Both the position numbers and the translations under genes were made by a program. Source: Diospyros lotus (lineage: Eukaryota > Streptophyta > Magnoliopsida > Ericales > Ebenaceae). From it: a stretch of DNA of 64,000 bases. Shown one piece after another: positions 28,213 to 60,845 of the stretch. The stretch covers positions 34,729,316 to 34,793,315 of the forward strand of contig NC_068339.1 of the NCBI RefSeq assembly GCF_014633365.1, read 5' to 3'. Each line of letters opens with the position of its first letter. The first letter of the stretch is position 1. The notes beneath the pieces were generated by a model. It saw nothing but the letters and a program-made list of their open reading frames with translations, was not told the DNA's origin and ran no database searches.

Positions 28213-28558
28213 CTTTTTCTTATTCTTCTGCGTCTTTTTCTCTCCCTCCCTCTCTCTCTAGTTTTCTCTCTCTATAACACCAAATTTAGATCAGTAGTCA
28301 TAGAAACCCCAGTGAACAGAGCACCCTGCCAGCCACTTACAACACCTCACCCCCACCCGCTATCATCCTTCCCGCCCCCCTCACCGCCGTTGCACCCGCC
28401 GTTGTCCCTCCCACCCCCCTTACCGCCGATCCCCCTACTCGCCATCAACCCTCCCTTCCCCCCCACTATCGTCGCACCCGCTAATAGCGTGGGTGGGTGG
28501 GTTTGTGAGAGAGAGAAAGAGAGAGGAAGAGAAAGAGGCAGTGAGTGGGCGAGAACAT
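28213..28558 (-). promoter_or_regulatory. 5' UTR/upstream region of the H+-ATPase fragment
   Basis: On the minus strand the 80 bases before the ATG are GA-rich (gagagagaggg...agaataagaaaaag), like a plant 5' UTR. Further up, 28,330-28,500 is strongly C-rich on the plus strand and opens a fortuitous proline-rich frame. It ends abruptly at the Copia RNase H junction. Confidence 0.4.
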
Positions 28559-32357: not shown

Positions 32358-33140
32358 TGATTAGTGGTTAATTTTGTAAAATTTTGTTATAATTATAACC
32401 CCCATTTTGATTTTAAAATTGGTTTAATTGAATAGTTATGTGTAATATATATATAATATATAATATATTATAATAAACATGTAAATATAATATATATATA
32501 TTATAACATAATACATATACTCAATTGAGTGCATGCATGGAGCATCCATATAATATATAAGTATATAATATACCATATAATATATCATATAAATATATAC
32601 ATAATATATAATTTAATAACACTCAATTGTTTGCTTATAGGCATGAAGAAGGTGGGCTTGGAGACTCAAATTGGATTGAAGAATGAAGAATTCAAACCCA
32701 ACTCATGAAGAATTAAAATCCAACACATGTCCATTAAATTGAAGGCCCAAGGCCCAACACATATTTAAGGCCCAATTTGAGCAAGCTCATAGAAGACATC
32801 ATTTGGAGAAGGCCCAATCATTTTTTAATTCTAATGAAGACCAAAAACCCAATTGTAGAAATTTATTTTTTATTTTTAATTTTATTTTTTTTATTTATTT
32901 TATGAGTGCTTTATTAGGTGTGTTTTTTTAGCTAAAGTCCATTTAACTTTAGGTGTGTATTATAGCTAAAATCCATTTAACTTTATGAGTGCTTTATTAG
33001 GTGTGTATTTTAGCTAAAATCCATTTAATTTTAGGTGTGTATTATATCTAAAATCCATTTAACTTTAAGTGTGTGAGTGCCCATTAGATATAATGATGTC
33101 TAGTTGAATAATTGAAATTGTGTGGTTTATATTGCATCTT

Positions 33141-33160
33141 GTGGGCTATAAATAGCTCAC
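33141..33160 (+). promoter_or_regulatory. LTR TATA box inside a palindrome
   Basis: GTGGGCTATAAATAGCTCAC: TATAAATAG flanked by arms that pair at all nine positions (one G-T). Confidence 0.6.
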
Positions 33161-33707
33161 TTGATTGCATTTGTAAGGTGTGATTATTATTCTTGAATAA
33201 AAGCTTAGTTGTTTTCTTAGAATTCTCTCTTTGAGAATTGCTTTTGTTCTTTCTTATTTTCTCTTGTGATCTTATTTTCTTTCTTTAGTCTCTTGAATTC
33301 TTATGTCATTTATTGTTACTTTATTATCCATCGCCTAAATGGCCGGTTAATTTCTACTATTTTAATTCCTGTCATTTAAATTCTGTTATTTAAATTACAC
33401 CATTTAAATTCCTATCAATTAACTTTTAAATAGAGATGAGTAGCTAAATCCAATCTTGGGTTAATGCAAGGATAGTGTCCAACACCAATGATTCCCAAAG
33501 AAAGCTGCGCTTTAAATGAGTGACATTAATTTAAATTTCAGTATGGGTGTATAGTAATTATTGAGAAATCACTAGGTTTGGATTGGAGCGTAAGCCTAAC
33601 TTAGAGCTTTCATGCCATATATGGGAGTTACTAGAACTGGAAACGCTATTATACCCAAATTCGGATAATTAATTTAGTTGTTTTGTGTATTAATTGCAAT
33701 CTGATTT

Positions 33708-33773
33708 ATGGTAGTTGCTTAAACTAGAATCCCGCATATCATGTATGGGGATTGCTTAAACTATAACTATCAT
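33708..33773 (+). other. 66-nt LTR hairpin module II (best copy)
   Basis: Outer arms ATGGTAGTT/AACTATCAT (9 of 9 with one G-T), internal-loop strands GCTTAAACTAG and GCTTAAACTAT (direct repeats, 10 of 11), inner stem AATCCC/GGGATT (6 of 6), loop GCATATCATGTATG. Confidence 0.65.
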
Positions 33774-33800
33774 CATCTCTAATTACATTTAATAACAAAC

Positions 33801-34256
33801 CCTCATATCTGAAATTAAATTAATGTTGCTAATCTTTTCTGCTAAAATTGTCTTAACTCAAGTGTTATCCAATTTCATATTCTCAAGTCTAGTATTTATT
33901 TCAACCTCTGCCTTGCTTTATTTCCTAGTATTTGTTGTCTAAAAAATCATAAAAAAATCTTGTTACCAATTCATCTAAATGCTTGTGCGTGTGTGTGACA
34001 TTCTTTTTTTTTTTGCCATAAATAAATCCCTCATATCTGAAATTAAATTAATGTTGCTAATCTTTTCTGTTAAAATTGTCTTAACTCAAGTGCTATCCAA
34101 TTTCATATTCTCAAGTCCAGTATTTATTTCAACCTCTGCCTTGCTTTATTTCCTAGTATCTATTGTCTAAAAAACCATAAAAAAATCTTGTTACCAATTC
34201 ATCTAAATGCTTGTGCGTGTGTGTGACATTCTTTTTCTTTTTTCATAAATAAATCT
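33801..34256 (+). repeat. 228-bp tandem duplication in solo LTR
   Basis: Two copies beginning CCTCATATCTGAAATTAAAT at 33,801 and 34,029, about 97% alike by eye. The LTRs at 37,796 and 45,137 have one copy, so the duplication arose in this LTR. Confidence 0.85.
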
Positions 34257-34425
34257 CTCCATGGACAACCTGGACTCATCCAAAAAATATAAATTTAAAT
34301 TTGGACTATAACTGCACTTGTACACTAACGAGTATAAACCTCTCACCAAAATAAAGAAAAAAATATAAAAGTTTTAATGTGTTTTTATTGTGTTTTAATT
34401 GCAGGGTGAGAGTGCAGCCAAAGCA

Positions 34426-37430: not shown

Positions 37431-37795
37431 TCAGTAGGCCTTGGCGATTGTCGACCTGATTAAAGGCCAGAACTGGTCGATAGGTTCAAAACTTGTCAAC
37501 CGGCTTGTGCCAAACGATTAACAGTTTCTTAGTGATATTTTACTCTTGGAAGATAAAATAGTTTTGATAATGACTATATGAAAATCAATCTTTAAATCTA
37601 TATGAATGAGTTTGAAGCAAAGTTATGAAAATCAATCTTGAATTCTTGTTGATAATCTCAACTTGCTTTCAAAAGAAACAAAGTAGGAAATGTTAAGTGT
37701 TCAATTTTTTCTAAATGGATAGTAGACTATAGGTTTATGCTCTGTTGACTATGCCTTTGAATAGTCGACTATGTGTTTATGTTCTGTCGACTATT
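37431..37795 (+). repeat. Copia LTR part 1, split by the LOG-carrying element
   Basis: From about 37,720 a TGTCGACTATG-type repeat begins; it resumes unchanged at 47,052 on the far side of the 9.25-kb insertion. The last five bases, ACTAT, are the TSD. Upstream, 37,440-37,510, is a separate TCGAC-rich patch. Confidence 0.6.
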
Positions 37796-38581
37796 GATTA
37801 GTGATTAATTTTGTAAAAAATTTGTTATAATTACAACCTTCTTTTGATTTTAAAAATGGCTTAAATTAGATATTAATATATATTTTAGGGTTATATGCAA
37901 GTTTAAATCGAAAAATGAATGAAATGAAGTTCTAAAGTAAAATTTAAAAATAATAATAATAAGAATAATATATCAAATTATATATAATACATATACATTA
38001 TTATATGCATGCATGTAATATATATAATATAATCTAATATATATATATGTGCCATGTGTAATATATATATATAATATATAATTTATTAATAACATTAAAT
38101 TATTATTACTTTTTTTTAGAAATGAAGAATTCAAGTCCATGAAGAATTCAAGCCCATGAAGAATTCAAACTCATGAAGAATTCAAAACCCATGAAGAATT
38201 CAAGTCCATAAAGAATTCAAGCCCATGAAGAATTAAAGTCCATGAAGAATTAAAGTCCATGAAGAATTAAGGCCCAAGGATTATTTTTAATCTTAATGAA
38301 GATTAAAAAACCAATTTATAGAAATCTATTTTTATTTTTAATGTGAGTGCTTTATTAGGTGTGTTTTTTAGCTAAAATCCATTTATCTATTAGGTGTGTA
38401 TTATAGCTAAAATCCATTTAACTTTATGAGTGCTTTATTAGGTATGTATTTTAGCTAAAATCCATTTAATATTAGGTGTGTATTACAGTTAAAATCCATT
38501 TAACTTTAAGTGTGTGAGTGCCCATTAGATATAATTATGTCTAGTTGAATAATTGAAATTGTGTGATTTGTATTGCATCTT

Positions 38582-38601
38582 GTGGTCTATAAATAGGTCA
38601 C
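38582..38601 (+). promoter_or_regulatory. LTR TATA box inside a palindrome
   Basis: GTGGTCTATAAATAGGTCAC. TATAAATAG in near-palindromic arms; probable polymerase II promoter for the element, about 1.15 kb before the LTR end. Confidence 0.6.
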
Positions 38602-39095
38602 TTGATTGCATTTGTAAGTGTGATTATTATTTTTGAATCAAAGTTTAGTTGTTTCTTTATAATTCTCTCTTTGAGAATTGTTCTTGTTCTTTCTCATTTT
38701 TTGTAGTATTTTCTCTTGTGATCTTACTTCCTTTCTTTCTTCTTTTAAATTCTTATGTCATTTATTGTTACTTTATTATTCACCGCTTAAATGGACAGTT
38801 AGTTTATGCCTTTAAATTTCTGTAATTTTAATTCTTGTCATTTAATTGTTCACCACCTAAATGGATGGTTAGTTTCTACTATTTTAATTCCCGTCATTTA
38901 AATTCTGTTATTCAAATTATGTCATTTAAATTCTTGTCAATTAATTTTCAAATGGAGATGAGTAGCTAAATCTAAACTTGGGTTAAGGAAAGGACAGTGT
39001 CCAACGCCAATGATTCCTAAAGAAAGCTGCGCTTTAAATGAGTAACATGAATTTAAATTTCAGTATGAGTGTGTCTTAATTATTAAGAAATCACT

Positions 39096-39295
39096 AGGTT
39101 TGGATTGAAGCGTAAGCCTAACTTAGAGCTTTCATGCCATGTATGAGAGTTACTAGAATTGGAAATGCTATCATACCCAAACCCGGATGATTAATTTAGT
39201 TGTTTTGTATATTAATTGTAATTGGATTTATGGTAGTTGCTTAAATTAGAATTTCGCATATCATGTATGGGGATTGCTTAAAGTAGAACTATCAT
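39096..39295 (+). other. Hairpin modules I and II in 5' LTR (transcribed part)
   Basis: Module I (about 39,097-39,182): GGTTTGG...CCCAAACC outer arms, inner CTTTCAT/ATGAGAG around GCCATGT. Module II (39,230-39,295): outer ATGGTAGTT/AACTATCAT, loop strands GCTTAAATTAG and GCTTAAAGTAG, inner AATTTC/GGGATT (two G-T pairs), loop GCATATCATGTATG. Both lie 500-700 bp past the TATA box, so in the RNA leader if transcription starts there. Confidence 0.6.
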
Positions 39296-39751
39296 CATCT
39301 CTAATTGCATTTAATAACAAACTCTCATATCTGAAATTAAATTAATGTTGCTAATCTTTTATGCTAAAATTTGGGAATCAACGGGTTGGTACTGAAATTA
39401 TCTTAACTCAAGCACTATCCAAATTCATATTTTTATGTTTAATGTTTATTTCAATTCCTGCCTTACTTTATTTTCTAGTATCTGTTGTCTAAAAAAAACC
39501 ATAAAAAACCTTGTTGCCAATTTGTCCAAATGCGTGTGCATGTGTGTGACATTCTTTTTCTTTTGCCATAAATAAATCTCTCAGTGGACGACCTGGATTC
39601 ATCTAGAAAATATAAATTTAAATTTGGACTACAACTGCACTCGTACACTGGCGAGTATAAACCTCTCACTAAAATAAAAAAAAATATAAAAGTTTTATTA
39701 TGATTTATTTTTATTGTGTTTTAATTGCAGGGTGAGAGTGCAGCCAAATTT

Positions 39752-39769
39752 TGGCGCCGTTGCTGGGGA
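39752..39769 (+). other. Primer binding site, tRNA-Asp type
   Basis: TGGCGCCGTTGCTGGGGA, five bases after the LTR end; differs in one base from the TGGCGCCGTTGCCGGGGA site used by Athila-like elements. Confidence 0.9.
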
Positions 39770-39975
39770 GATTAAGGCAAAAACAAAAAGAACAAAAAAA
39801 AAAAAGAAAAGAAAAAAGAATAAGCATCTCCTAATAAAATCGGTAACTCTGTTTCTCTTTTACTTTATTTTTGTTTGTGCATTGTATATGAGACTGAGAT
39901 CAGGTAGAATTCTTAAACAGCATTTTCATATCATTTTGATTCTTTACCTACAATTTGATTGTCAACTTTACACTC

Positions 39976-41211
39976 ATGTCTCAATACTACTACAATCTGT
40001 CTGGATAAGATACTTATCATGATGAAAATAATCATTTTGAATCCGATTTGTCTAAACCTCTTAAGGATTATCTATACCCTCCTAGGAAAACCACTTTTAA
40101 TTTGCAACCAGACACTATCCATTTGTTACCCACTTACCATGAGATTGAGGTTTGGTGTGTTGTGTGTGAAACTTCAACTCATTCGACGGATGACTGCCCT
40201 ATAATACCTGCTTTTAAGGAGGTATTGTATGGTCAATCCAGTTACACACACACACACAACTATGAGGGAATGTATTACCAGAACCATGAGGAAAACTACC
40301 ATTCGGACTTTGATGCATATCACCTTAATTCACACTTTCATCCAAATTTCTCATGGGAAAATGATTTTGTAGCCCAACCACATGAGCACTTCCTTTCCCA
40401 GCCTCAATCATTTCAAACGAATGAAGGGTCTACATTCGATGCATATCAACCCCCTCATGGGAGTTCATTAAAAGATACCTTCAATCTATTTATGCAAGGC
40501 CAAATGGAAATTTTTACACAAATGTCCAAATGTCAAGAACATACCATTAGAGTTACAGAGGACATTAGGAACCAATTGACACAGCTAACACAGACTTTGA
40601 GCATGTCAGAGCCTGTCAATCCCAACTCACTCCAAATCCCATTAATAAAACCCATCATCAAAAGTGAAAGTCAGGAGCAGGACATAGGAGTGACTGTCTT
40701 AAGGAATGGAGAAATAATTGAGAAACTTGATGCCCCTAGGATAGTACACCATTTGGTGCAAAAAGAGAGAGTGGTTGATCATAGTGAGGTAGATGTCAAT
40801 GAAGCCTTGGAGGAAGAAAAAGACCAAAATGATGTGAGAAAAGAAGAAACCTGGGAGGAAGAAGAGGATAAAATCCAAGAGCCAAAATGTGAAGATGTCA
40901 TAAGTTTATCCACATTTAAGCCTAAATTTCTATCTTTTAGGCTAGTCGATATTATTGGGGATCAAATTAAACTAAACATGTGTAAGGTGTTTATGCAAAT
41001 TAATGTATCGTACTCTGATGTAATAAAACCAACACCGCCAGATGATATATTTTCAAAATATGTATGTGCATTCATGAGAAAAATCAATTTACATAATTTT
41101 GAAAATAACTTTAAAAGTGGTGTAGTGAATGGAAGATATTATACGATTAGGTGGGCAACCACTCATTTGATCCTTAACTGGAAAAAAAAAAAAAAAACTC
41201 TAAAAAAATAA
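39976..41211 (+). pseudogene. Gag-like protein of the LOG-carrying element
   Basis: Structural-protein remnant of about 410 codons. An ATG at 39,976 (MSQYYYNLSG) is followed by TAA at 40,006-40,008; the same frame is then open to 41,211 with no early ATG. It has a CX2CX4HX4C zinc knuckle (CVVCETSTHSTDDC, about 40,159-40,200), then a His/Gln-rich part, a helical stretch (LKDTFNLFMQGQMEIFTQM) and VTVLRNGEIIEKL, the counterpart of the TLRSGK motif that follows the knuckle in Athila gag. An acidic Glu-rich region follows (EEEKDQND, EEEEDKI). The N-terminal capsid domain expected before the knuckle is missing, and the end runs into a Lys-rich poly-A region. Packaging function is doubtful for this copy. 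Confidence 0.7.
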
Positions 41212-41969
41212 TAAAATAAAAATATAATAATTTTTTTTAAAGAAGTATATATACACATATAAGTTGTTCCTTTTCTGCATTACTTAAATAGTGTTTCTTT
41301 GTGTGCAGTCTAAATAAAATTCTTGCATACGAGTTCATGCATTGAAGACCGCCAAGTATGCCTATCTTTTATCCTTTTATTGTCAATTGAGGATAATGCT
41401 CAATTCAAGTTGAGGGATAAGGTGTACTTAAGAATTAATTTATTGGTGTTTGAAATTGATCCATTGTGCAAATAATTTTGGTTGACTTGATAATATTGTC
41501 TTGTGTGGTATATATGATTTCATAGGGCCCCTAAAAAATAATAATAATAATAATAAAATTAAAAAATTAAAAAAAAAAATAGAGAGAAGAGGGAGATAGA
41601 ATTGATGCTGGTAGTTGTCATTTTTCTCGGGCAGTGCAATCACATTGCCCTAAAGAAAAAGGCACACTGCCAAATGTTGAAAAAAGAGGCGTAGCGTTGA
41701 AAAAAAAGGCACACTGCCAAATGTTGAAAAATGAGACGCTAGAGGACGCCAAACCTGACGGTGCAATTATGGCATACCTCGAGCCGTGTGTACAATAGTG
41801 ATGCCCATTGCTCTATAAGAAACTCCATATCTGTATGAGGTAAGCCACCCTTCTTGAGCTCAGCCTTCTCTCATTTGTGTTATTCTCCGATTAGATACTC
41901 TCATCCCTTTTATAAAGTTTATAGTTCTTTACTTTCTTCTTAGTATAGTTTTTTTTTTTAAAAAAATAA
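41212..41969 (+). promoter_or_regulatory. Region between gag and cargo, with TATA-like box and candidate intron
   Basis: Non-coding. It holds a polypurine-like copy (caagttgagggataagg, 41,405-41,421), AT-rich simple sequence (41,530-41,580), and a 47-bp direct repeat containing GGCACACTGCCAAATGTTGA at 41,661 and 41,708. CTCTATAAGAAA at about 41,811 could be a TATA box for the cargo, about 160 bp before the next ORF. A GTAAGC...CTTCTTAG candidate intron of 104 bp spans 41,840-41,943. An independent cargo promoter is possible but unproven. Confidence 0.4.
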
Positions 41970-42515
41970 ATGGATCTTTATCTCTCAAAAATTCACAAGT
42001 ACTATCCATCTCTCCCTCAGAATGATTTGAAAAAAAATTATGTTGCTAGGTGTGAAAGACTTAGGCTGTTGATGCGTAATAACATCCCTGAAGATATTCG
42101 TTGGATGATCGAAGCAAAAGTTCGATTAGCTGGTGAAACTTCACCTAGTTTTAAGCATTTTCCAGGCTTAGGGAAGAGTAGTTTTGAGAAGAAAAGAAGA
42201 GCGAAAAAAGTGAATGGTTGTTACAAATGTGCTCGATGGACCTGTAACACACGATGCAAATCTGTGGGGTTTACGTCTATAAATCGAGAGGATAAAATTA
42301 GTTTCATAAAGGATGGACTGAGTAAGGAGTCTTTGGATGATATTCAATTGACTCTTGAGACGCATCCATGTGGAATAGTGCAAAGAGAACTTCTTGCTTT
42401 ATGGACCCAGTTCAGAAGTGACCACCAAAGCTATAGTCTTGGGAATCTGACTAAAAACGACCATGTTTGCCAATCTATAAGAAAATTAGATGGGAAGCTT
42501 ATCCCCGCTTCATAG
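41970..42515 (+). CDS. 181-aa basic Cys-rich protein, Carla_C4-like (tentative)
   Basis: Function unknown. Start ATG at 41,970 in a good context (aaATGG). Residues 73-80 are EKKRRAKK, preceded by GLGKSSF and followed by four cysteines C84-X2-C87-X4-C92-X3-C96 and, about 14 residues on, ISFIKDG. This order (G.G+S.(F/Y)..+RRA, C2-C2 knuckle, hydrophobic-FI.(D/E)G) is what I know from the small nucleic-acid-binding, often silencing-suppressor proteins at the 3' end of carlavirus and vitivirus genomes (Pfam Carla_C4 and relatives). The cysteine spacing is shorter, and the N-terminal 70 and C-terminal 70 residues match nothing I recognise. After the TAG stop the frame stays open another 61 codons to overlap the LOG start. 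It could instead be an uncharacterised plant protein. Intact, 167 bp before LOG. Confidence 0.55.
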   Translation: MDLYLSKIHKYYPSLPQNDLKKNYVARCERLRLLMRNNIPEDIRWMIEAKVRLAGETSPSFKHFPGLGKSSFEKKRRAKKVNGCYKCARWTCNTRCKSVGFTSINREDKISFIKDGLSKESLDDIQLTLETHPCGIVQRELLALWTQFRSDHQSYSLGNLTKNDHVCQSIRKLDGKLIPAS

Positions 42516-42557
42516 AAAGTGTTTAAGCCGTTTCTGGACGTAAAACCAGAGGAAGAT

Positions 42558-42662
42558 GTGAGCCACAATCACAACTACTTATACATACGCATGATTTTTG
42601 TTTGTATTTATTTCTTGTTGAATTGTTGTATAGCTACTTTTGATCGCCAAACTTCTTTCCAG
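42558..42662 (+). other. Candidate intron before the LOG start
   Basis: GTGAGC...TTCTTTCCAG, 105 bp, T-rich with a good acceptor, ending 20 bp before the LOG ATG. If spliced it would bring the LOG ORF close to the 3' end of the Cys-rich ORF in one transcript; the acceptor alone could serve splicing from the LTR leader. Confidence 0.35.
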
Positions 42663-42682
42663 GGCATACAAAAGGAACAAAC

Positions 42683-43342
42683 ATGGAAGGCCAGTTAGTT
42701 TGTCGAATTAAAACCATATGTGTACTTTGTGGCTCTCAACTTGGGAGTGATATTTGTTACGCATTTGCAGCAAGCGAACTAGGCCAAAAATTAGGAGGAA
42801 AAAAAATTAATTTGGTATATGGAGGGGGAAGTCGTGGATTGAATGATTATGTTTCACAAGCTGCACATCTTGAAAAATCATCTGTGATAGGTGTAATGCC
42901 AATCCCTTTGGCTGAACCACATATTTTCGGGATTACATGCGGTCAACTTATAGAAACGACTTCTATGTCTGAGCGCATGGCTTGTAAGATTTATCAGTCA
43001 GATGCCTTCATTACTTTACCAGGAGGTTTTGGAACACTTGAAGAAATCTTTTGTATAATCTCCTGGGCCAAGAGTAATCTCCATACCAAACCCATTAGAC
43101 TTTTAAATGTTAACCATTTTTTTGATGGGTTACTCTCTTTTCTTGATCAGGCTGTGGAGCAAAAGTTCATTTCTCTTTCAGCAAGAAAGATTCTCATTTC
43201 TGCATCCTCTATTGATGAGCTGCTAGAGAAATTACACGCTTATGTTCCACAGCACGATCCTTATGAGCCTCGGATAGACTGGTCTAAGGCAATCAGCAAC
43301 AAGCGCCAAAGGGGTCCGATTAATTTAGATTTATCACTGTGA
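42683..43342 (+). CDS. LOG-like: LONELY GUY-type cytokinin riboside 5'-monophosphate phosphoribohydrolase
   Basis: Predicted to release free cytokinin bases from their riboside monophosphates in the cytosol. 219 aa, full family length, one exon. Seen: nucleotide-fold start ICVLCGSQLG (12-21), LVYGGGSRGL (44-53), ERMACK with the expected catalytic Arg98, PGGFGTLEE (113-121) with catalytic Glu121, and LLNVNHFFDGLLSFLDQAVE (140-159). Arg98 and Glu121 fall at the canonical plant LOG positions. Departures: YGGGS-R-GL-ND where I and MG are usual, M instead of K after Arg98, and a divergent C-terminus. Normal plant LOG genes have several introns, so this is a reverse-transcribed copy. The absence of any stop or frameshift, while gag is broken, suggests recent capture or retained use. 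Activity is likely but not certain. Confidence 0.93.
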   Translation: MEGQLVCRIKTICVLCGSQLGSDICYAFAASELGQKLGGKKINLVYGGGSRGLNDYVSQAAHLEKSSVIGVMPIPLAEPHIFGITCGQLIETTSMSERMACKIYQSDAFITLPGGFGTLEEIFCIISWAKSNLHTKPIRLLNVNHFFDGLLSFLDQAVEQKFISLSARKILISASSIDELLEKLHAYVPQHDPYEPRIDWSKAISNKRQRGPINLDLSL

Positions 43343-43357
43343 GAAATGCTCTTTATT

Positions 43358-43538
43358 AAGATGGCTGAGTAAGGAGTACTTTTTGTACTCTTGAGACGCA
43401 TCTAGTTATTGTACAACTTGCAGGATTTTTCTTGGTTGTGTTCTTAAAAAAAAAAAAAAAAAAACTATGGAATGTTGTTAGCAAAGTCTTTGATAAGATG
43501 GCTGAGTAAGGAGTACTTTTTGTACTCTTGAGACGCAT
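43358..43538 (+). repeat. Two 44-bp direct repeats echoing the Cys-rich ORF, each with a hairpin
   Basis: Perfect 44-bp copies at 43,358-43,401 and 43,495-43,538. Each contains GAGTACTTTTTGTACTC, a 6-bp stem with a T5 loop. Their ends match two parts of the Cys-rich ORF: ctgagtaaggagt (42,318-42,330) and actcttgagacgcat (42,351-42,365), with about 20 bp between these replaced by the hairpin. So pieces of that ORF were duplicated downstream of LOG. Confidence 0.8.
43446..43464 (+). other. A19 tract 103 bp after LOG stop
   Basis: A pure run of 19 A, placed where the poly(A) tail of a captured LOG mRNA would be. No AATAAA is seen just upstream, and other A-runs occur nearby (43,819; 44,455-44,560), so the reading as a fossil tail is only suggestive. 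Confidence 0.4.
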
Positions 43539-45136
43539 TTTGCTTATCTTATGACTTGCATGAAATTTTTATTTTGGTGTGAAAATATAAATATATATCT
43601 ATATGGTATGCTCATTTGTTGTTTAAGTTTTAGCAGTTCACAGCAAATCTATGGACTTGTGGAGTTACAGGTATTCCTAACAACCCTAATTTATTACTGC
43701 AATTCAAGTTAGGGGGTGTAAGGTTTAGTTATGAATTATCTGGTACATATTTAACTGTGAGTTTGCTATTGCTAGTTTGTAGTCTTGTGTGAATTGATTA
43801 TCTTTATCTGCTCTTATTAAAAAAAAAAAATTATGTGTTTTAAATAATGCTATTCCTAAAGCTTTGAAGTTATGCACTGATAGCAGGTTAAGTTTGCAAT
43901 ACGAAACATGAATGCATTGATTTCTTATTTGAAAATGTATATGCATTAGAATAAGTAATTTGCATTCATCGGGGATTCAAAATTTAAAAATTGGTTATCG
44001 GTCATAAAGTCAAAGGTAATAGTAATTAGCTGATTAGTACACTGTATGATCCCTCAACAGAAGTGGAGACTATTACCCAAGTAAGTGTTTGAGCCTAATA
44101 ACTGTTAATTCTGAGTGAAATAACACTTACTCTAAATATGCTCTCTTGTTTATCTTATCTTTTCAATGGCTTCAAAATATCAATTCGCTTTGAATGTCTA
44201 GTATGATAGCGGATGAATTTGACTGGTTTCAAACTTCGAATTAGATGACTGAGAAGCATGATAGGGGGATCAATTTCTTTCATTTTGAGCCTATTAAACC
44301 TTTTTCTTTCTTTAAATCAACCTCTCTTGTTAGCCCATTTGAGTCATTTGTAGTACAACTTCTTTCGTTACCCTTGTTTAACCCATAACCATATGAATTT
44401 TATCCAACCTGGTGTGATTTTGGGAATTAGTTTGTCTAGCTATTTTCATATTAAAACAAAAAAAAGAAAGAAAAAAAATAAAAAAAAGAGAAATTCTCTT
44501 AGCTATTCAGCACAATTGTTTCAAAATAAATTCTGAAAAAAAAAGAAAAAAAAAAAATCCCGACACACCATTTACACACTCTACCTTTTCTTTGACAACC
44601 CGTATTAATCTCATAGCCCCATTACAACCCAATCTGGTCCCTCTTGATGCTATAAATCATGTGATCTCAGCATTCGAGTTTGGAGTAAGGAATCATGTTT
44701 AAATTCAGAAGTTACTCGTCTAGAGCATTATTCCAATCATGAAGCTATGTCAATTTCCCTGTTCTTTCATGAAAATACGTTCCTTGTATTTGGGATGACA
44801 CCTAGTTTTGAACTTGTTCTGTATTTACTCTTATAACGGTGCACCCCCTTGTGTGTACACCTGAGGAATTCTTTTTATTGGAGGGAAAATCCATACTAAG
44901 GTTTGAAGTCAAAACTTCAAGGGAGTAAGTCTGTGTGTTGGTTATCCTAATTGCTATTCCTGAGATTGTATGACCTTTAACCAAAAATCTGATTTAGAAT
45001 GCTAAATTATTTATTCGATTTTATGCATTTCAGTTTCGAATTTGAAATTTTTACATTCATACAGTTATTGTAAATAAAGCTTGGTAGGTGTATAGTCTGA
45101 TTGCTAAGGGACTAGCAATGTTTAAGTTGGGGGGTA
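43539..45136 (+). other. 3' non-coding domain and polypurine tract
   Basis: Matches 14,875-16,360 and 20,238-21,640 on the minus strand. Includes an earlier polypurine-like copy (caagttagggggtg, about 43,706) and ends with AAGTTGGGGGGTA (45,124-45,136) directly before the 3' LTR, the functional polypurine tract. Poly-A runs at 43,819 and 44,455-44,560. No coding sequence. Confidence 0.75.
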
Positions 45137-47046
45137 TGATTAGTGGTTAATTTTGTAAAAATTTTGTTATAATTACAACCTTCTTTTGATCTTAAAAATG
45201 GCTTAAATTAGATATTAATATATATTTTAGGGTTATATGCAAGTTTAAATCGAAAAATGAATGAAATGAAGTTCTAAAGTAAAATTTAAAAATAATAATA
45301 ATAAGAATAATATATCAAATTATATATAATACATATACATCATTATATGCATGCATGTAATATATATATATAATATAATCTAATATATATATATATATGT
45401 GCCATGTGTAATATATATATAATATATATAATTTATTAATAACATTAAATTATTATTAATTTTTTTTTAGGAATGAAGAATTCAAGCTCATGAAGAATTC
45501 AAAGCCCATGAAGAATTCAAGTCCATAAAGAATTCAAGCCCATGAAGAATTAAAGTCCATGAAGAATTAAAGCCCATGAAGAATTAAAGTCCATGAAGAA
45601 TTAAGGCCCAAGGATTATTTTTAATCCTAATGAAGATTAAAAAATCAATTTATAGAAATCTATTTTTATTTTTAATGTGAGTGCTTTATTAGGTGTGTTT
45701 TTTAGCTAAAATCTATTTAACTTTATGAGTGCTTTATTAGGTATGTATTTTAGCTAAAATCTATTTAATATTAGGTGTGTATTATAGCTAAAATCCATTT
45801 AACTTTAAGTGTGTGAGTGCCTATTATATATAATTATGTCTAGTTGAATAATTGAAATTGTGTGGTTTGTATTGCATCTTGTGGCCTATAAATAGGTCAC
45901 TTGATTGCATTTGTAAGTGTGATTATTATTCTTGAATCAAAGTTTAGTTGTTTTCTTATAATTCTCTCTTTGAGAATTGTTCTTGTTCTTTCTCATTTTT
46001 TTTAGTATTTTCTCTTGTGATCTTACTTCCTTTCTTTCTTCTTTTAAATTCTTATGTCATTTATTGTTACTTTATTATTCACCGCCTAAATGGACGGTTA
46101 GTTTATGCCTTTAAATTTCTGTAATTTTAATTCTTGTCATTTAATTGTTCACCGCCTAAATGGACGGTTAGTTTCTACTATTTTAATTCCCGTCATTTAA
46201 ATTCTGTTATTCAAATTATGTCATTTAAATTCTTGTCAATTAATTTTCAAATGGAGAAGAGTAGCTAAATCTAATCTTGGGTTAAGGCAAGGACAGTGTC
46301 CAACGCCAATGATTCCTAAAGAAAGCTGTGCTTTAAATGAGTAACATTAATTTAAATTTCAGTATGAGTGTGTCTTAATTATTAAGAAATCACTAGGTTT
46401 GGATTGGAGCGTAAGCCTAACTTAGAGCTTTCATGCCATGTATGAGAGTTACTAGAACTGGAAACGCTATCATACCCAAACCCGGATGATTAATTTAGTT
46501 GTTTTGTATATTAATTGTAATTGGATTTATGGTACTTGCTTAAATTAGAATCCCGCATATCATGTATGGGGATTGCTTAAAGTAGAACTATCATCATCTC
46601 TAATTGCATTTAATAACAAACTCTCATATCTGAAATTAAATTAATGTTGCTAATCTTTTATGCTAAAATTTGGGAATCAACGGGTTGGTACTGAAATTAT
46701 CTTAACTCAAGCACTATCCAAATTCATATTTTTACGTTTAATGTTTATTTCAATTTCTGCCTTACTTTATTTTCTAGTATCTGTTATCTAAAAAAACCCA
46801 TAAAAAACCTTGTTGCCAATTTGTCCAAATGCATGTGCGTGTGTGCGACATTCTTTTTCTTTTTCCATAAATAAATCTCTCAGTGGACGACCTGGATTCA
46901 TCTAGAAAATATAAATTTAAATTTGGACTACAACTGCACTCGTACACTGGCGAGTATAAACCTCTCACTAAAATAAAAAAAATATATAAAAGTTTTATTA
47001 TGATTTGTTTTTATTGTGTTTTAATTGCAGGATGAGAGTGCAACCA
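45137..47046 (+). repeat. 3' LTR of the LOG-carrying element
   Basis: 1,910 bp, TGATTAGTGGTTAATTTTG...GAGTGCAACCA. Same internal order as the 5' LTR with fewer units in the 17-bp and 45-bp arrays. TATA palindrome GTGGCCTATAAATAGGTCAC at 45,881-45,900; hairpin module II at 46,529-46,594 (one outer mismatch). High similarity to the 5' LTR implies a fairly young insertion. Confidence 0.93.
46529..46594 (+). other. 66-nt LTR hairpin module II
   Basis: Outer arms ATGGTACTT/AACTATCAT (8 of 9), inner stem AATCCC/GGGATT (6 of 6), loop GCATATCATGTATG, loop strands GCTTAAATTAG and GCTTAAAGTAG. Confidence 0.6.
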
Positions 47047-47051
47047 ACTAT

Positions 47052-48013
47052 GCCTGTTAATAGTTGACTATGTTTTGTTTTGTTGACTATTGTGCAGGTT
47101 CTGTCGACTATGAAATTTCTTCTGTCAACTATGCCCAAGCTTCTGTAGACTATTGTGCAGGTTCTGTCAGCTATGAAATTTCTTCTATCGACTATGTAAG
47201 TGTATGATGTTATAAATTTTCTTCATATTTTGGATGTATTGACTATGTGAAAGTGTTTGTTAACTACCAGTAGTTTTGGTTGGACATCTGTCGACTATGC
47301 TTTCTTGTCTATCGACTATGCCTTAGTTTTATTTGAAAATATAGTCGACTAACCTCTTTTGTCTGTCAACAGTTTGTTTCTCATAAATTTATAACTGCCA
47401 GTTTTTGGCGCATTTAATGATCGTCCAACCACCATAACGGTTGAATTTTTGTATTATCTACCATCAACTATAAATATGAGTTGGGAGAATTGATCGAGGG
47501 CTATTGGAAACATTTAATATCTTCAACTGCCAAGCTTTCATTTTTACATCGAAGCGATTAATTTCTTCTCTCTCTATATTTACATTTCTGAGGCTTTACA
47601 TATACTGTTACATTCATTGTAAGCCTAAATTTTTCAGTTGGAGAGAGCTTGTAACTATACTCTTAGACTCTTATTCTCACGATTACTGTATTTGACCTAG
47701 CGTAAGCTAGAGGGCCCATTATATTGGGAGGTTTGTAAGTTTTCCTAGTCACGGACTAGAGGACCTACTCAAGTTGAGTAGAGGGTTGATAGTGAACTTG
47801 CTTCAAAATCCTTAGTGGTAGCTAAGGTAATGGACTAGGCTTGGAAAGCCGAACCATTATAAATCATTGTCTCCTGTGCTTTCTATTTTGCTTGTTTTTG
47901 TTAGCATTTTTATCCTACTTAATTTGTTCTTTCATCCATAGGATTTCATATTCATTTATCTCAAAATGAGATTATCTTTACACGATTGATACCTCATCGT
48001 GCCATTTTAAGGT
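47052..48013 (+). repeat. Copia LTR part 2, with GTCGACTATG array
   Basis: 47,052-47,370 holds about 13 variants of tGTCGACTATG. Downstream come leader-like sequence and 'gggaggtttgtaag', 'ggactaggcttggaaagccgaacc', 'tataaatcattgt', wording typical of the 3' part of Copia LTRs. No primer site follows. No coding sequence. Confidence 0.55.
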
Positions 48014-48445: not shown

Positions 48446-49881
48446 AAGTTGCAGATGCACGAGCTGACCTCGGTGAAGGTCGGATTGATAGGATCGAGAG
48501 AATCCTAGAAGGCATGGCTGGGCGAATTTTGGAGTTGCAGCCCGAGCAAAGAAGAGTAGATTCCTTGGAGAGGTATCTACGACAAAACCCGCCAGTGTTT
48601 CGAGGAAAACCGGCAGATGCAATCAGTGAATACTGGTTGGACCAGACCGAAAAGATCCTACAAAGATTGAGAATCCTGAATGAAGACAAGGTCGAGTGTG
48701 CGACCTATATGCTGGAAGAGGAAGCTGCCCAATGGTGGAGGTCTATGCAGCGAGCGATACCTAATCGGACAGGATCTCAAGGGTCAGCAACAGATGTAGA
48801 ATTGGGGGAGGCACCCCAGATGTCGTGGGAACGGTTTAAGGAACTGTTCAACGGGAAATTCTTTCCCACTTGCTGGAAGTTGGCTAGAGCTCGAGAGTTT
48901 ATGAACTTACGCCAAGGGCCAAATATGTCTGTAGCTCAATACGAGGCTGAATTTTTGCGGTTAATCAAGTATATGCCGCTGTACGGGATGGACGATGTGG
49001 AGAAGGGACGAAAATTCTTACAAGGCTTGCAAATTGAATTTCAACAGCTGATAAGCCTGGTCCATGTGGAGTCTTATGCAGACATAGTTTTCAAGGCTAT
49101 GACTGCCGAGGAGAATATGATGCGGGTGGCAGAACTAAAGGCCACGACGATTCAAGCTGGAGGACAATCAGAGAAATCCCACTCGACTGTGGGACCTCGG
49201 GATGGGAAGATCGTAAAAAAGGGCAAGGCGTGCTTTAAATGTAAGAAGAGGCACCCGGGCAAGAGGTGCGATGGCCAAAGTATTGTCTGTTACACCCTTG
49301 GACAACCCGGGCATACTTTTAGAAATTGCTCGAAGGGAATGGTCCAAGAAGGTAAAGCTATAGCAGCAACACCAGTAAGCGTGATCTGCTACAATTGCAA
49401 CCAGCACGGGCACATCTCGAGGAATTGCCCGAAGAAGAAAGAGCAGCCGCTAAAGATTGAAGAAGGAAAATGGACCAGACAGGGCCGAGTCTATAACTTG
49501 ACCAAGGAGGACGTAGAGGCGAATCCTGCAGTTATCCAAGGTACTCTCTTCATTTTGGATACTCCTGTGCATGCATTGATAGATCCAGGGTCTACTCATT
49601 CTTTTATATCGCATGCTTTGGCTGGGAGTTTGAGAGTAGAAACCGAGTTTATGGGGTGTCTTATGGTGATTTCGACACCTATGGGAAAAAGTATGAAGTC
49701 CTTAGAAATGGTGAGGGGATGTGAAATTAGCTTGAGTAATGTTTGGTTCCAGGCTGATCTGATTCTGTTAGAAGTATATGACTTCGATATAATCTTGGGG
49801 ATGGACTTCTTATCCAAGTACGACGCCAATATAGACTATCGTAGGAAGATAATGACCATAAGAAAACCCGAGGGAGGGTAG
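48446..49881 (+). pseudogene. Tekay/Del-like gypsy gag and protease
   Basis: Frame open from 48,446, first ATG at 48,514; the true N-terminus is lost. Retrotransposon gag domain (VFRGKPADAISEYWLDQTEKI, EEEAAQWWRSM, LFNGKFFPTCWKLARAREF, FLRLIKYMP), then two zinc knuckles. The first, CYTLGQPGHTFRNC, has Leu for its second Cys; the second, CYNCNQHGHISRNC, is intact. The protease active site is LIDPGSTHSFIS (about 49,577), the DPG(S/A)T form usual for this lineage. A TAG at 49,879-49,881 stops the frame, and RT continues in the same frame, so gag-pol was one polyprotein. Confidence 0.88.
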
Positions 49882-51982
49882 GTTAAATTTCGGGGACAAG
49901 GCAACCCTAAGGTCATAAAGATGATTTCGACAATGAAGGCAGCTAAGCTGTTGAGCCGAGGAGCTCATGGATTCATAGCTTATGCTCAGTTAGAAGAAAG
50001 AGAGGTACCGAAACTCAATGAGGTGCGAGTAGTACGAGAATATGATGACGTGTTTCCAGAAGAGTTACCGGGACTACCTCCACTTCGGGAAATTGAGTTC
50101 TCAATTGAGTTAGTGCTAGGAACCCAACCGATATCAATTCCGCCATACCGAATGGCTCCGGCGGAGATGAAAGAATTAAAGAGTCAGCTACAGGAGTTGA
50201 CTGATAAGGGGTTCATTAGGCCAAGCACGTCACCATGGGGTGCACCAGTACTATTTGTGAAGAAGAAAGACGGGAGTCTAAGGATGTGCATTGACTACCG
50301 TCAGCTAAATAAGGCCACAGTAAAGAACAAGTATCCACTCCCAAGGATAGATGAGTTGTTTGATCAACTGCAGGGAGCAAAAGTGTTCTCGAAGATCGAT
50401 TTGAGATCCGAATATTATCAGCTAAGAATTAAACCAGATGATGTTCGGAAGACGGCATTTCGGTCGAGGTATGGCCATTTTGAGTACTTTGTAATGCCAT
50501 TCGGATTAACTAACGCTCCAGCAGCATTTATGGATCTTATGAATAGGGTATTCAAGCCCTACCTGGATCGATTTGTGATTGTCTTCATAGATGATATATT
50601 GGTGTATTCTTCGAATGAAAGTGACCACGAAGAGCACTTGAGAATAGTACTAGGAACCCTCAGGAAACACCAATTATATGCCAAGTTCTCGAAGTGCGAG
50701 TTCTGGCTATCCCAAGTGGCGTTTATTGGGTATGTGATCTCAGCCGAAGGAATCTCAGTGGATCCAGCTAAGATTGAGGCTATTCAAGGATGGAAGCAAC
50801 CGACATGTGTGACCGAAGTACGAAGCTTTTTGGGATTGGCAGGCTACTATCGAAGATTTGTGGAAGGGTTTTCGAAGATAGCTGCACCTATGACAAAGCT
50901 CATACGGAAGGAGGTCAAGTTCGAATGGACTGCAAAGTGTGAGGAAAGCTTTCAAGAGCTCAAGGACAGACTGACCTCAGCACCTATGCTGGCAATGCCT
51001 AGTGGGCCTGGTGGATATGTTGTATACACCAATGTCTCAAAGGTGGGTTTGGGTTGTGTATTGATGCAGCATGGTCGGGTGATCGCATATGGATCACGCC
51101 AATTGAAGAGACACGAAGTAAACTACCCAAGACATGACTTGGAGCTGGCAACGGTGGTATATGCTCTGAAGCTATGGAGGCACTACCTATATGGAGAGAC
51201 GTTCGATGTATTCACAGACCACAAAAGTCTAAGGTATGTGTTCTCGCAGAAAGAGTTGAACATGAGGCAGCGACGCTGGATGGAGTTCCTGAAGAACTAT
51301 GACTGCACCATCTTGTATCACCCGGGGCGTGCCAATGTGGTAGCTGATGCTTTGAGTAGGACTGTGCCTACTGTTATGGCCGGGTTGATGGCCCAAGAGT
51401 GGCTGTTGATTGAGGCTTTTAGCCTGATGACGGTGAGTGTAGTACCGAAGGGATCTTCTGTCCTAGTAGTTGGCCTGGCGGTTCAACTGGATCTGGAGAC
51501 CGAAATACGGGAGGCTAGTGGGAGTGACCGGCGTATACGTCTATGGGTAGACGAGCAAGGCCAGCCCAAGAGTTCAGATTTTGAGATGCGAAATGGCATT
51601 CTCAGGTTTCAAGGTAGAGTGTACGTGCCAAACCTTCGGGAGTTGAGGCAGAAAATTTTGGATGAAGCCCATAGAGCTAAGTATACCGTGCATCCAGGAG
51701 CCACGAAGATGTATCGAGATCTTCGAGAAATCTACTGGTGGCCTGGGATGAAGGCCAGCGTGGCTAGGAGGGTGGCACAATGTGATATATGCCAAAGGGT
51801 AAAGATTGAGCACCAGAAACCTGCAGGGTTGATGAGACCCTTGGAAGTTCCTGAGTGGAAATGGGAACATATCACGATGGATTTCGTGACAGGATTTCCG
51901 AAGAGTGGAAGGGGCTATGATGCCATTTGGGTGGTGGTAGACAGGTTGACAAAGTCAGCGCATTTCCTGCCTACGAGGATGG
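49882..51982 (+). pseudogene. Tekay/Del-like gypsy RT, RNase H and integrase N-terminal half
   Basis: Continues gag in frame 1. [40 protein letters not shown] (catalytic D-D at about 50,590). RNase [18 protein letters not shown], where the first catalytic Asp (YTDAS) is Asn, then [11 protein letters not shown] and NVVADALSR. Integrase: HHCC domain ([11 protein letters not shown]...CDICQRVK) and core start ([27 protein letters not shown]). The frame is open for about 690 codons, then hits the solo LTR at 51,983 and reads 25 codons into it. The D-to-N change alone should disable RNase H. Confidence 0.9.
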
Positions 51983-53492
51983 TGAAGGATCATGAACGAG
52001 GATACAAAAGCATGCAACGGAAGCGGTTTAAAATCAAAACCGTTCCTCGTATTGATTAGAATCTAGGAGACTTACTTTTACGATGGATTACCGGTCGGAA
52101 TGGAGCGACAGGAGCAGGATGAGCGGGAGCTACGGCGCGTGGTGGAGACGACGGCTGTCCTGCGATCCTTCGGCTCCTTCGCATCAGAACTTCGAGGCTC
52201 TCTTTCGATCTTCTGGAGTATGACTAGAACTCGTGGCCTCTCTTCGGTGAAGAAGAATGAAAAACGACTTGGATGAAAAAACAAATAATGAGAGAATATA
52301 TAGGGAGAAACCTAGGGTTAAAACCCTAGTGGGCCAAACCCTAATGGGCCAAGATCATTTAATTAATTTTCTAATTGGGTTAGCCCAATTAATTAATTAA
52401 AAACCCTAATGAACTATTATTTTATTCTAGCCCAATTAATTATGGACCATTCTGAATAAAATAATTCTCTCTCAATATAATTCATCTAACAAGCCAAATG
52501 TATTAAAAAATACATGAGTTACATCGAGCTACCCCGGGGACCAAAAGACAAATTATTCACGGCTACTAAAATGACCAAAATATCCTTGCTACCTAGTAGC
52601 TATATTTTGTCATTCTAAGTGTTCCAACTATCACCATATGGTAACACTGACCCCATGAATAATTCTGCATATGCCATGTCTTTGACCTACTAGTGTAATG
52701 ACGAAAATACCCCTCTGCGTAACACCCATCATTTAGAAAGGAATAATGTACTAACACCTTTCTAAATGACTTCTACCATCCTTAGATCACTAGTCCAATA
52801 ATCTGTGACTACTCGAATGTACTTGCTTATCACTGGGAGCTACCCAGAAGCACACACTCTTAAGTCACGTTCCCAGGGCCCTGGATTATTCGATTATTCT
52901 TGGACAATCACAAGGGGGTGAATCACAGAAACTATCTTGTATTAGTCTGTCTTAGCTAATTAGAAACCATACTCCCAACTCAAAAGGATATTGATCTTTG
53001 ATAGACCTCACCTACAATGAATCTAAGAATATAGCTCTAGGTTCACTAGACCACCAACTAATACTCAAGTATTAGAGTACTCGTCCACGTAGTAGCAGTG
53101 ATAGACTAGCTCCATGATAATTAGTACTTTGTCATTAGCTTCTATCACAGGTCCACTCTACGCATTCCAAATGCGCTTGTACAATTAGAGTAAACTGACT
53201 GTCTACTGGCTAAGGCAAGCCATCCTCCATTAGGATCTATTGCACAATGATCTTATCATGATAGAATGCCCAGTTCTATCAAAAGATCAAGAGTAATATT
53301 TTCTTGCTTATTAAGTACCCATGATTCATGCCTAACTGTGAAGAACGACCCATCACATGAATCACTTACTTAATAGCATGGACACATTTCCAACAATTAA
53401 ATGCAAATAATATATGTGCCATAAACTGAATAAAAGAAACATCATTACCATAAATTAAACAAAACGTGTCTTTAGGGCATACATTTCCAACA
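51983..53492 (-). mobile_element. Angela/BARE-type Copia solo LTR inside gypsy integrase
   Basis: 1,510 bp with perfect TSD GATGG (51,978-51,982 and 53,493-53,497). The minus strand begins TGTTGGAAATGTATGCCC, very close to the start of Angela/BARE LTRs, and ends CATGATCCTTCA. Its promoter (minus, about 52,290-52,350) has GGCCCA, AGGGTTT and AACCCTAG motifs upstream of CTATATATTC. Insertion plus TSD is 1,515 bp, so the split integrase halves stay in the same frame. Confidence 0.88.
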
Positions 53493-59223: not shown

Positions 59224-60845
59224 ATGGCACATTTTGCTTCCTCATCCCAATCCGAGGGTCTAAGCACCACTTGTCCCCCATTCTTTGATGGAACTAATTA
59301 TAACTACTAGAAAAGAAGAATGCAGATTTATTTGATGCAGGACTCAAGCTTAATGCAAGCAGTGTTTAAGGATATCAAGCTAGCTGACATGGAGAATATT
59401 GAGACCTAGACAACAGAAGAAAGAAGAAACATGGAGATAAATGCAAAAGCTATGAATACACTAATTTGTGCACTGAGCTCAGAGGAATTCAATCGAGTGT
59501 CAACGTGTAAGACAGCTAAGAAGATTTGGGAAAAATTAAAGGTAACACATAAAGGAACCAATCAGGTAAAAGAAACAAAAATCAATCTTCTTGTCCATGA
59601 TTATGAGTTATTTTTAATGAAAGAATATGAGTCTATAAAAGATATGTATACTAGATTCAATGATATTGTTACTACCTTAGAAGCTTTAGGTAAGACTTAT
59701 GCAAATGGAGAAAGAGTTAGAAAAATTCTAAGAAGTTTACCTAGATCGTGGGAATCCAAGGTCACTGCCATAACAGAGGACAAAGATTTAGATACACTTA
59801 CATTTGGAAACTTGCCAGGTTCATTAATGACACATGAAATTATGATGAAAAGAAATGAAGTTGATGACTCTAAGAAAAACAAACATGTAGCATTTAAAAT
59901 TGAGGATGAAGATAAAGACTCTCAAAGTGAAGAGGATGATTTTGCACTGTTAGCTAGAAGATTTAGGAAATTTATGAAGAAAGGTAAATTTAATCAAAGG
60001 AGAAACTTTCGGAAAGAGAAAGATCAAAAAGAGACTAACCCATCTAATGAGCTTCGATGTTTTGAATGAAAGAAGCTAGGTCACATTAGAAGTGACTGCC
60101 CTCAGTAGAAAAGAAAGGACCGTAAGGAAAAGAAAGTAAAGAAAAAGGCATTAGTTGCTTGGAGTGAAGAGGAGCTGTCCTCAAGTGAGGATTCTCAAGA
60201 TGAAGAAGTGGCAAACGTGTGCTTCATGACAAAACTTGATAATAAGGTAACTTCCAAACTTTCAAATTCAATTTTTGAATTTACATTTGAAGAGCTACAT
60301 GATGCATTTAATGAATTATAAGAAGAATGTGAGAAAATGAATTTGAAAAATGTTGATTTAAAGAAGAAGAATTATTTGTTGGAAGGTGAAGTTAAAATCT
60401 TGAAATCTGAAAAAGAATGCCTAGAGAATGAAAGAAACAGTATGGCTAATGAAAAAGAAAGTCTCCTAAAAAAGAACAAAGATTTAAAGGAATCCCTAGA
60501 AAAATTAGTTGAAGGGAAGAAAAAGTTAGAGATGATACTTGGAGCTTAAAGAAATTTTGGAGATAAGTAAGGAGTTGGCTTTGATCCATGCAATGCAAGT
60601 TCTAGTAAAACAGTTTTCATAAGAGCTTCAAATCAGAAGTTTATTCAAAGAAAACCATTCTACAAACAAAAATTTTCAACGAAAGAAATTTCATGTCATT
60701 ACTGTGGAAGGAATGGACATTCAATTAATAAGTGCTTTGTGAGAAACAATCCACATAAATTCAAACAAGTGTGGGTTTCTAAGGGAGTAGTGTCAGCTAA
60801 CAAAAATGGACCCAAAATGATGTGGGTACCAAAGGGTATAATGTG
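59224..60845 (+). pseudogene. Copia gag (UBN2 type), several stops
   Basis: Start at 59,224 (MAHFASSSQSEGL, FFDGTNYNY). In-frame TAG codons at about 59,308 and 59,407 stand where Trp is expected (NYNYWKRRM and ETWTTEE contexts). The UBN2 gag domain follows: LSSEEFNRVSTCKTAKKIWE, TRFNDIVTTLEALG, ILRSLPRSWESKV. A first zinc knuckle at about 60,055 is broken by TGA at its second Cys; a second, CHYCGRNGHSINKC (about 60,694), is intact. A Lys/Glu-rich coiled coil lies between (60,337-60,545). Not translatable. Confidence 0.88.

Follow-up and report, generated by a model that had tools for sequence, protein, structure and literature searches.

Introduction

LOG-like (YgdH) domains have been reported within long terminal repeat (LTR) consensus sequences of Citrus sinensis and C. 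clementina and, under a relaxed filter, in an LTR consensus of Populus trichocarpa (PMC9289625, citing Steinbauerova et al. 2011, in the passages available); LOG within Ty3/gypsy elements is already in print there. The same passages describe orchid Ty3/gypsy elements that carry an N6-methyladenosine (m6A) RNA demethylase domain of the AlkB type, another acquired accessory enzyme. Here we analyze a 64,000-nucleotide stretch of the Diospyros lotus genome (NC_068339.1, positions 34,729,316 to 34,793,315; hereafter the window), which contains a retrotransposon at 37795-47046 with two adjacent intact genes, one coding for a LOG-type protein of 219 residues and the other for a protein of 181 residues related to viral cysteine-rich proteins (NABP). 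This retrotransposon, which lacks pol and is nonautonomous, belongs to a high-copy Ty3/gypsy family. AlkB domains, like the one carried by the orchid elements, occur in flexiviruses too. The 2011 abstract of Steinbauerova and colleagues reportedly describes two Athila-like elements with similarity to LOGL4.

With the Citrus and Populus elements the present family shares a LOG-type extra domain in a Ty3/gypsy context; an NABP partner, a changed pocket and a basic-LxLxL tail are not reported for those elements in the passages of PMC9289625 concerned, and a pol-less derivative and a copy count within one genome are added here. The orchid AlkB-type elements differ in domain, in element and in plants. 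The viral cysteine-rich proteins of the carlavirus-type group are RNA-silencing suppressors and pathogenicity factors, and that of Chrysanthemum virus B is a weak suppressor that also acts as a transcription factor causing hyperplasia (PMC12172455, in the part available).

Results

Anatomy of the window element

The two LTRs of the element (1952 and 1910 bp, both TG...CA) are 96.9% identical (Kimura two-parameter (K2P) distance 0.031), with 45 transitions and 13 transversions among 1899 aligned sites, and are flanked on both sides by the target-site duplication (TSD) ACTAT. Substitution rates are around 1.3e-8 per site per year, and those of trees may be slower; the insertion would then be roughly 1 million years old, as an order of magnitude only. 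TG...CA LTRs, a 5-bp TSD and a primer site, as expected of a Ty3/gypsy LTR retrotransposon, are present both here and in the copy on C14 described below. The preliminary description of this DNA, made from its letters, had recognized the LTRs, the TSD and the primer site (at 39752), all of which we recovered. Its end point at 47046 is correct and its start, 37796, is off by 1 bp; the polypurine tract that it noted exists as a purine-rich stretch, although a weak one. The interior (39747-45136, 5390 bp) has no pol in the list of open reading frames (ORFs) and the structure analysis, and the LTR-to-LTR period is 7342 bp. The gag remnant, described as carrying a stop, is indeed decayed, and worse than by one stop: its 387-aa frame matches no gag Pfam family. 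The NABP ORF, the lack of pol and a related LTR at 32358-34420 had gone unnoticed. The features of the element are as follows.

37790..37794, no strand: left target-site duplication, ACTAT (LTR analysis)
37795..39746, +: 5' LTR (LTR analysis)
39752..39769, +: primer-binding site TGGCGCCGTTGCTGGGGA, differing at one base from that at L036:3996
40048..41211, +: remnant of a gag-like frame that contains a CX2CX4HX4C knuckle; structure common to L035
41942..41943, +: putative splice-acceptor-like pyrimidine tract and AG 5' of NABP, suggested by sequence
41970..42515, +: NABP ORF, 181 aa (Viral_NABP; Carla_C4 below cut-off; zinc-finger-like CX2CX4CX3C)
42318..42365, +: 48-nt motif within NABP, whose two ends recur twice 3' of LOG (repeat comparison)
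42516..42682, +: intergenic stretch between NABP and LOG, 167 bp (copy comparison)
42660-42662, +: putative splice-acceptor-like CAG before LOG
42683..43342, +: LOG-type ORF of 219 aa; its C-terminus carries a basic patch and LDLSL (ORF list, profiles, alignment)
43365..43401, +: 37-nt hairpin-capable repeat, copy 1 (repeat and folding analysis)
43502..43538, +: 37-nt hairpin-capable repeat, copy 2 (repeat and folding analysis)
45124..45136, +: weak purine-rich tract directly 5' of the 3' LTR
45137..47046, +: 3' LTR (LTR analysis)
47047..47051, no strand: right target-site duplication, ACTAT (LTR analysis)

For the motif shared by NABP and the two 37-nt repeats, three matches arose in 0 of 100 shuffles. 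The two repeats 3' of LOG had folding z-scores of -1.05 and -3.08; the motif inside NABP scored -2.58 and the intergenic stretch +0.64. RNA hairpins at the motif or the repeats are suggestive only. A 20-nt A run lies at 43446-43465, 3' of the first hairpin repeat. It could be a trace of the poly(A) tail of a captured RNA, a weak pointer given other A runs in the element. The LTR at 32358-34420 belongs to the same family (84-85% identity to the element LTRs over aligned sites) and appears to be solo or truncated, with non-matching flanks AGGCA/AAGCA in the place of a TSD. By eye, degenerate GTCGACTATG-like short repeats fill the element flanks (37740-37800 and 47040-47360), which resembles a satellite-like target region.

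The NABP-LOG pair in the genome

Searches of the 630-Mb assembly containing the window returned 1124 first-look candidates for LOG and 995 for NABP, of which the best 150 each were scored. All 150 LOG copies span residues 1-219 at 89-100% identity, and all 150 NABP copies span residues 1-181; 140 of the former have no internal stop, and 147 of the latter no stop. The suspicion that the LOG ORF had spread was thus well founded, and random stops are far from universal among these other copies. Thirty-one distinct places were read, comprising the 30 top LOG matches, the window included, and L035 (35 rows, four of which are repeat readings). LOG and NABP are both present at all 31, and the intergenic stretch measures 167 bp in every row, with 98% identity to the window in 11 aligned copies. 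LOG is intact at 31/31 places and NABP at 28/31 (broken in L003, L005 and L035); the LOG start context AACATGG recurs in 35/35 rows.

Five places (L031-L035) were read over 9.9 kb each, and in all five a 3' LTR follows 1.8-1.9 kb downstream of LOG; other LOG-carrying copies with LTRs of their own had been named as something to look for. L032, L033 and L034 contain a single open pol-side frame of 1209-1214 aa 5' of NABP, and L031 has this coding split into two frames of 596 and 592 aa at the same position. L035 lacks pol as the window copy does, and its gag remnant is 94.5% identical to that of the window over 1473 bp. It has its own LTRs, a period of 7491 bp and a TSD (ATTAG) unlike the ACTAT of the window, so the pol-less form has itself moved; its primer site gave no match to the one pattern tried.

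The copy on C14, covered by pieces L034 and L036, encodes protease, reverse transcriptase, RNase H and integrase in L034 and Retrotrans_gag in L036. Piece by piece this gives gag followed by the order protease, reverse transcriptase, RNase H, integrase, and the open frames continue in one phase as far as the junction between the pieces, where one codon is unread. Its LTRs show 1 mismatch and 2 gap positions in 2091 sites and are bordered by CCTAC on both sides; it is a very recent insertion. In the 5' interior its similarity to the window copy is limited to two stretches, one of 163 bp (88%) and one of 635 bp (64%); just 5' of NABP it amounts to 75% over 823 bp. In pol-bearing copies the NABP-LOG module therefore occupies the env position, after pol and ahead of the 3' LTR. 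Athila elements are not known to have a chromodomain or a second RNase H and carry extra ORFs between pol and the 3' LTR; neither a chromodomain nor a second RNase H was found in the L034 pieces scanned (Pfam, E up to 0.01). From this anatomy and the literature, we infer that the family belongs to the Athila lineage.

LOG copies are spaced 7.2-7.5 kb apart at G000 C14:18448121-18471026 and C11:16479278-16494645, which is the pol-less LTR-to-LTR period, as expected for LTR-sharing arrays. No copy read is identical to Diospyros lotus P0001, annotated LOGL10; the closest, among seven rows, share 209/219 residues.

Relatives in other plants and origin of the LOG gene

Database searches gave 821 LOG matches and 422 NABP matches, of which 120 each were listed. 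Named relatives among those listed come from Diospyros, Rehmannia, Primulina, Orobanche, Reevesia, Diplodiscus, Populus, Xanthoceras, Melia, Parasponia, Acer and Rhamnella, as well as other genera; many relative clusters have one or few members and some have dozens to hundreds. Three Orobanche gracilis gene models among the listed matches (P0159, P0189 and P0224) carry NABP and LOG domains together. A midpoint-rooted tree was built from the 120 listed LOG matches, the window protein and 120 matches to AtLOG3. The window and 116 of the 120 listed matches formed one clade (support 0.995), hereafter retrotransposon-type LOGs, outside which fell P0066, P0071, P0101 and P0105. In a second tree with a bacterial outgroup, 30 of the 116, the window, 13 host proteins and AtLOG8, the 31 retrotransposon-type LOGs again formed a clade (94.7/99), next to a second clade made up of the 13 hosts and AtLOG8 (96.5/99), which includes monocots and gymnosperms; long branches could exaggerate this separation. 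A LOG phylogeny had been proposed beforehand as a check, and this is its outcome. Beyond this genome, Citrus and Populus, the clade suggests an LTR-element location for these proteins.

The preliminary description had the element capture a LOG mRNA, an idea that these data speak strongly against for this element. An intronless ORF inside LTRs is what a recent transduction of host mRNA, by this element or a recent parent, would leave behind. The same ORF sits with the same partner at 31/31 places, including copies with an open pol frame, and its relatives from other eudicots group in a single clade next to the seed-plant LOGs sampled, which makes such an event highly improbable. Because the LOG ORF is paired with NABP at every place read, accompanies open pol as well and has related eudicot LOGs that form a single clade, one old capture is the simpler reading, and a likely one.

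A protein related to viral cysteine-rich proteins upstream of LOG

The NABP ORF is intact and lies 167 bp upstream of LOG on the same strand. Its product matches Pfam Viral_NABP (PF05515) at 6e-7 and 30.1 bits, above the gathering score of 23, and reaches 18.3 bits against Carla_C4 (PF01623), below the cut-off of 20.9. When the window protein was scanned together with 29 of the 120 relatives listed, 27 of these 30 NABP members matched PF05515, the best at 1.2e-8, and 26 matched PF01623 (E up to 0.01). The alignment shows a conserved CX2CX4CX3C set, with cysteines 1 and 3 invariant and the remaining ones at 90% or more, together with a basic stretch, and the Pfam match spans both. In Pfam match and in this basic and cysteine region the protein is like the cysteine-rich proteins of carlaviruses, allexiviruses and mandariviruses (PF05515, PF01623; PMC12172455, in the part available). 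It differs from them in being plant-genomic, 181 aa long, retrotransposon-borne and paired with LOG, and silencing suppression by it is putative.

The fixed order, the spacing of 167 bp and the virus-like NABP would also be compatible with a joint entry of both genes, their source being a flexivirus-group RNA virus in which they were already combined. Among solved proteins, though, LOG is nearest to plant LOGs (AtLOG3). Scans of viral_contigs, a collection that may hold few plant RNA viruses, gave no confirmed NABP relative, and no virus with both genes turned up in the open-licence literature searched. We judge a joint viral origin improbable.

Fold, pocket and tail of the LOG-type protein

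The preliminary description's intact, intronless 219-aa LOG ORF is unbroken and no chance frame: it scores 142.5 bits against TIGR00730 (cut-off 96.35) and 110.4 against Pfam Lysine_decarbox (cut-off 27); against NF058542 it stays below the cut-off (83.6 versus 300). The nearest solved proteins are Arabidopsis At2g37210 and At5g11950, which we take to be LOG3 and LOG8. The predicted structure has a mean predicted local distance difference test (pLDDT) score of 87, with residues 206-212 and 214-219 below 50, and aligns to AtLOG3 (2a33) with a template modelling (TM) score of 0.97 by target length and 0.77 by query length. The fold, the PGGxGTxxE motif and the catalytic Arg98 and Glu121, whose retention the alignment confirmed, are held in common with plant cytokinin riboside 5'-monophosphate phosphoribohydrolases.

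In CgLOG, adenine is bound by Met96, Lys100 and Glu121, and the proposed prenyl site is lined by Met96, His97, Lys100, Glu125 and Trp129, likewise in AtLOG3 and OsLOG, with some residues different in MmLOG (PMC4979012, in the passage available). Window numbering was matched to CgLOG through shared motifs. We compared 117 retrotransposon-type LOGs (the window and 116 of the 120 listed matches) with 123 host LOGs (120 listed matches to AtLOG3 plus P0071, P0101 and P0105), leaving P0066 in neither set. Met95, His96, Lys99, Glu124 and Trp128 are invariant in the hosts (123/123). Of these, the retrotransposon-type proteins retain Lys99 in 1/117 (Ile, Met or Leu instead in 113), and Glu124 is always replaced (by His in 63, Gln in 41, Cys in 8 and other residues in 5); His96 persists in 31/117, Met95 in 103 and Trp128 in 91, and residue 123 is Phe in all 117. 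The window protein itself has Met95 and Trp128 together with Ser96, Met99 and Cys124, and so departs from the cytokinin-specific pocket. The sets were picked by similarity to different queries, which favours the contrast; opposite invariance and replacement at the same columns would nevertheless be hard to explain by query choice alone.

These data bear on whether the protein is a canonical enzyme that converts isopentenyladenine and trans-zeatin riboside monophosphates to active cytokinin and drives division of the cells transcribing the element. Retention of Arg98 (103/117) and Glu121 (111/117) and the close fit to AtLOG3 speak for it. The loss of Lys99 and Glu124 speaks against it, as do the alanine changes of 'crucial residues', S19A being the named exception, that nearly abolished CgLOG activity (PMC4979012, in a passage that does not list those residues). 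The pocket argument is not decisive, because the MmLOG prenyl site differs too (PMC4979012). We consider the canonical enzyme unlikely, if still a serious contender. LOG family membership and the catalytic pair of the 'hormone-activating gene' noted earlier hold; cytokinin-activating identity is not safe to assume, because host-invariant equivalents of CgLOG pocket residues, Lys99 and Glu124, are replaced.

The element proteins also differ from AtLOG3-type LOGs in an added C-terminal basic patch and terminal LxLxL. Among the 110 retrotransposon-type LOGs of at least 190 aa, 68 have LxLxL as their end, 97 carry a basic patch within their final 24 residues and 67 combine the two features; the corresponding counts in the 123 hosts are 0, 1 and 0, and LxLxL occurs anywhere after Trp200 in 1/120 host proteins. 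Among the retrotransposon-type LOGs running at least 12 residues past Trp200, 68/100 have the LxLxL end; with Orobanche set aside it is 68/78 (75/78 by a relaxed pattern), with a basic pair in 78/78. LxLxL is one of two consensus forms of the ethylene-responsive element binding factor-associated amphiphilic repression (EAR) motif and is found in the effectors XopD and PopP2 (PMC8126959, in the part available). A C-terminal LDLSL of this form is present at 31/31 places read.

Constraint on the two genes

Relative to the window, LOG has a mean synonymous divergence (dS) of 0.096, a nonsynonymous divergence (dN) of 0.039 and a dN/dS of 0.41 (34 rows), the comparison between copies that had been suggested at the outset; NABP has 0.095, 0.024 and 0.25 (31 rows with intact NABP). 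These rows are interrelated, four of them come from places already counted, and their divergence includes neutral time after insertion. Among non-window rows, LOG averaged a dS of 0.028 and a dN of 0.0067 over 561 pairs, and NABP 0.049 and 0.0068 over 465 pairs. Fisher tests on rounded counts between the window and L032 gave p 0.017 for LOG and 0.0018 for NABP.

In a first comparison of copies with the window, NABP, the intergenic stretch and LOG were 95-98% identical, the gag-side flank mostly 72-77% and the 3' flank 85-92%. The proposition that the genes are more conserved than their flanks was dropped after a window-wise comparison, in which the 3' noncoding stretch to about 44300 was about 95% conserved too (11 copies against the window). 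This argues against taking nucleotide identity by itself as a sign of selection; within the genome, dN/dS is the one measure that favours constraint. In comparisons between species, LOG relatives of full length share 43-59% identity, the nearest three excepted, and full-length NABP relatives 58-71%, with one at 90%; these would be the stronger evidence of constraint, though databases list called frames only.

NABP and LOG might instead be inert cargo hitchhiking on an active element, and both the conserved 3' noncoding DNA and the fact that their functions are read from sequence sit well with that. The full-length relatives in other species, dN/dS below 1, the prevalence of the LxLxL end outside Orobanche and the retention of both genes in the pol-less lineage do not, and we give mere passengers little credence.

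Other elements in the window

hAT-type transposase pieces lie at 9540-11842 (-; Dimer_Tnp_hAT and DUF659). A second Ty3/gypsy element at 48514-52059 (+) has gag-protease and reverse transcriptase-RNase H-integrase zinc-binding frames, and Ty1/copia-looking frames are found at 59431-63662 (+) and 28481-29140 (-), with Pfam RVT_2 on 62406-62993.

Discussion

We propose, with a probability of about one half, that NABP and LOG form a virus-like accessory module of a high-copy element, which suppresses silencing and reprograms host cells. Both proteins would be translated from spliced subgenomic RNAs, as pyrimidine-AG sites 5' of each gene suggest. NABP would bind RNA and blunt RNA silencing directed at the element. 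The LOG-derived protein, with its nucleotide-cleaving residues kept, base pocket changed, and basic patch and LxLxL tail added, might enter the nucleus and reprogram the cell through a change in the pool of cytokinin or of a related nucleotide, through recruitment of TOPLESS-type co-repressors, or through both. Acting jointly, the two proteins could make cells permissive for transposition; the window copy retains both genes intact despite the loss of pol. The geminivirus protein AC2/C2 may serve as a precedent for coupling silencing suppression to a cytokinin effect: it acts as a silencing suppressor, inactivates adenosine kinase and heightens cytokinin responses (PMC8062710, in the part available). 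A more specific version, in which a long-carried eudicot module joins a carlavirus-type suppressor to a pocket-changed LOG with a nuclear, co-repressor-recruiting tail, is possible but on the unlikely side.

Several observations, in addition to the conserved 3' noncoding DNA, weigh against an accessory module of this kind. The similarity of the window NABP to viral proteins is modest at 30.1 bits, and its AlphaFold2 model is poor (pLDDT 54.4, predicted TM score 0.30) and unfit for a fold search. The intact fraction is inflated, since the copies scored and read are the best matches, and the Fisher test of LOG between the window and L035, again on rounded counts, was not significant (p 0.066). 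The strict LxLxL is lacking in 22/22 tail-reaching Orobanche LOGs, and LTRs flanking the LOG-NABP pair were seen in this genome only. The functional role of the module as a whole is argued from sequence and structure prediction, and TOPLESS binding and nuclear entry would depend on short motifs.

The open-licence literature searched yielded nothing on an NABP partner, on the pocket pattern or on the tail of the element LOGs, and neither LOG nor NABP is named in the portions of PMC11963269 and PMC7264820 covered.

The means by which plant LTR elements evade silencing, and the roles of their extra ORFs, are open questions (for the ORFs, PMC7264820, in the portion covered). Here one extra ORF has recognizable relatives in a silencing-suppressor family, the other in a family of hormone-activating enzymes, and the two are kept together; their role is thus testable with standard assays. 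The family in which they are paired has, moreover, inserted very recently at least once. Some plant 'LOG' annotations, such as P0001, may be transposon genes with altered pockets. If the more specific version of the module holds, the LOG-type protein would be no junk and no plain cytokinin enzyme; it would represent a type of host-reprogramming factor new to transposable elements.

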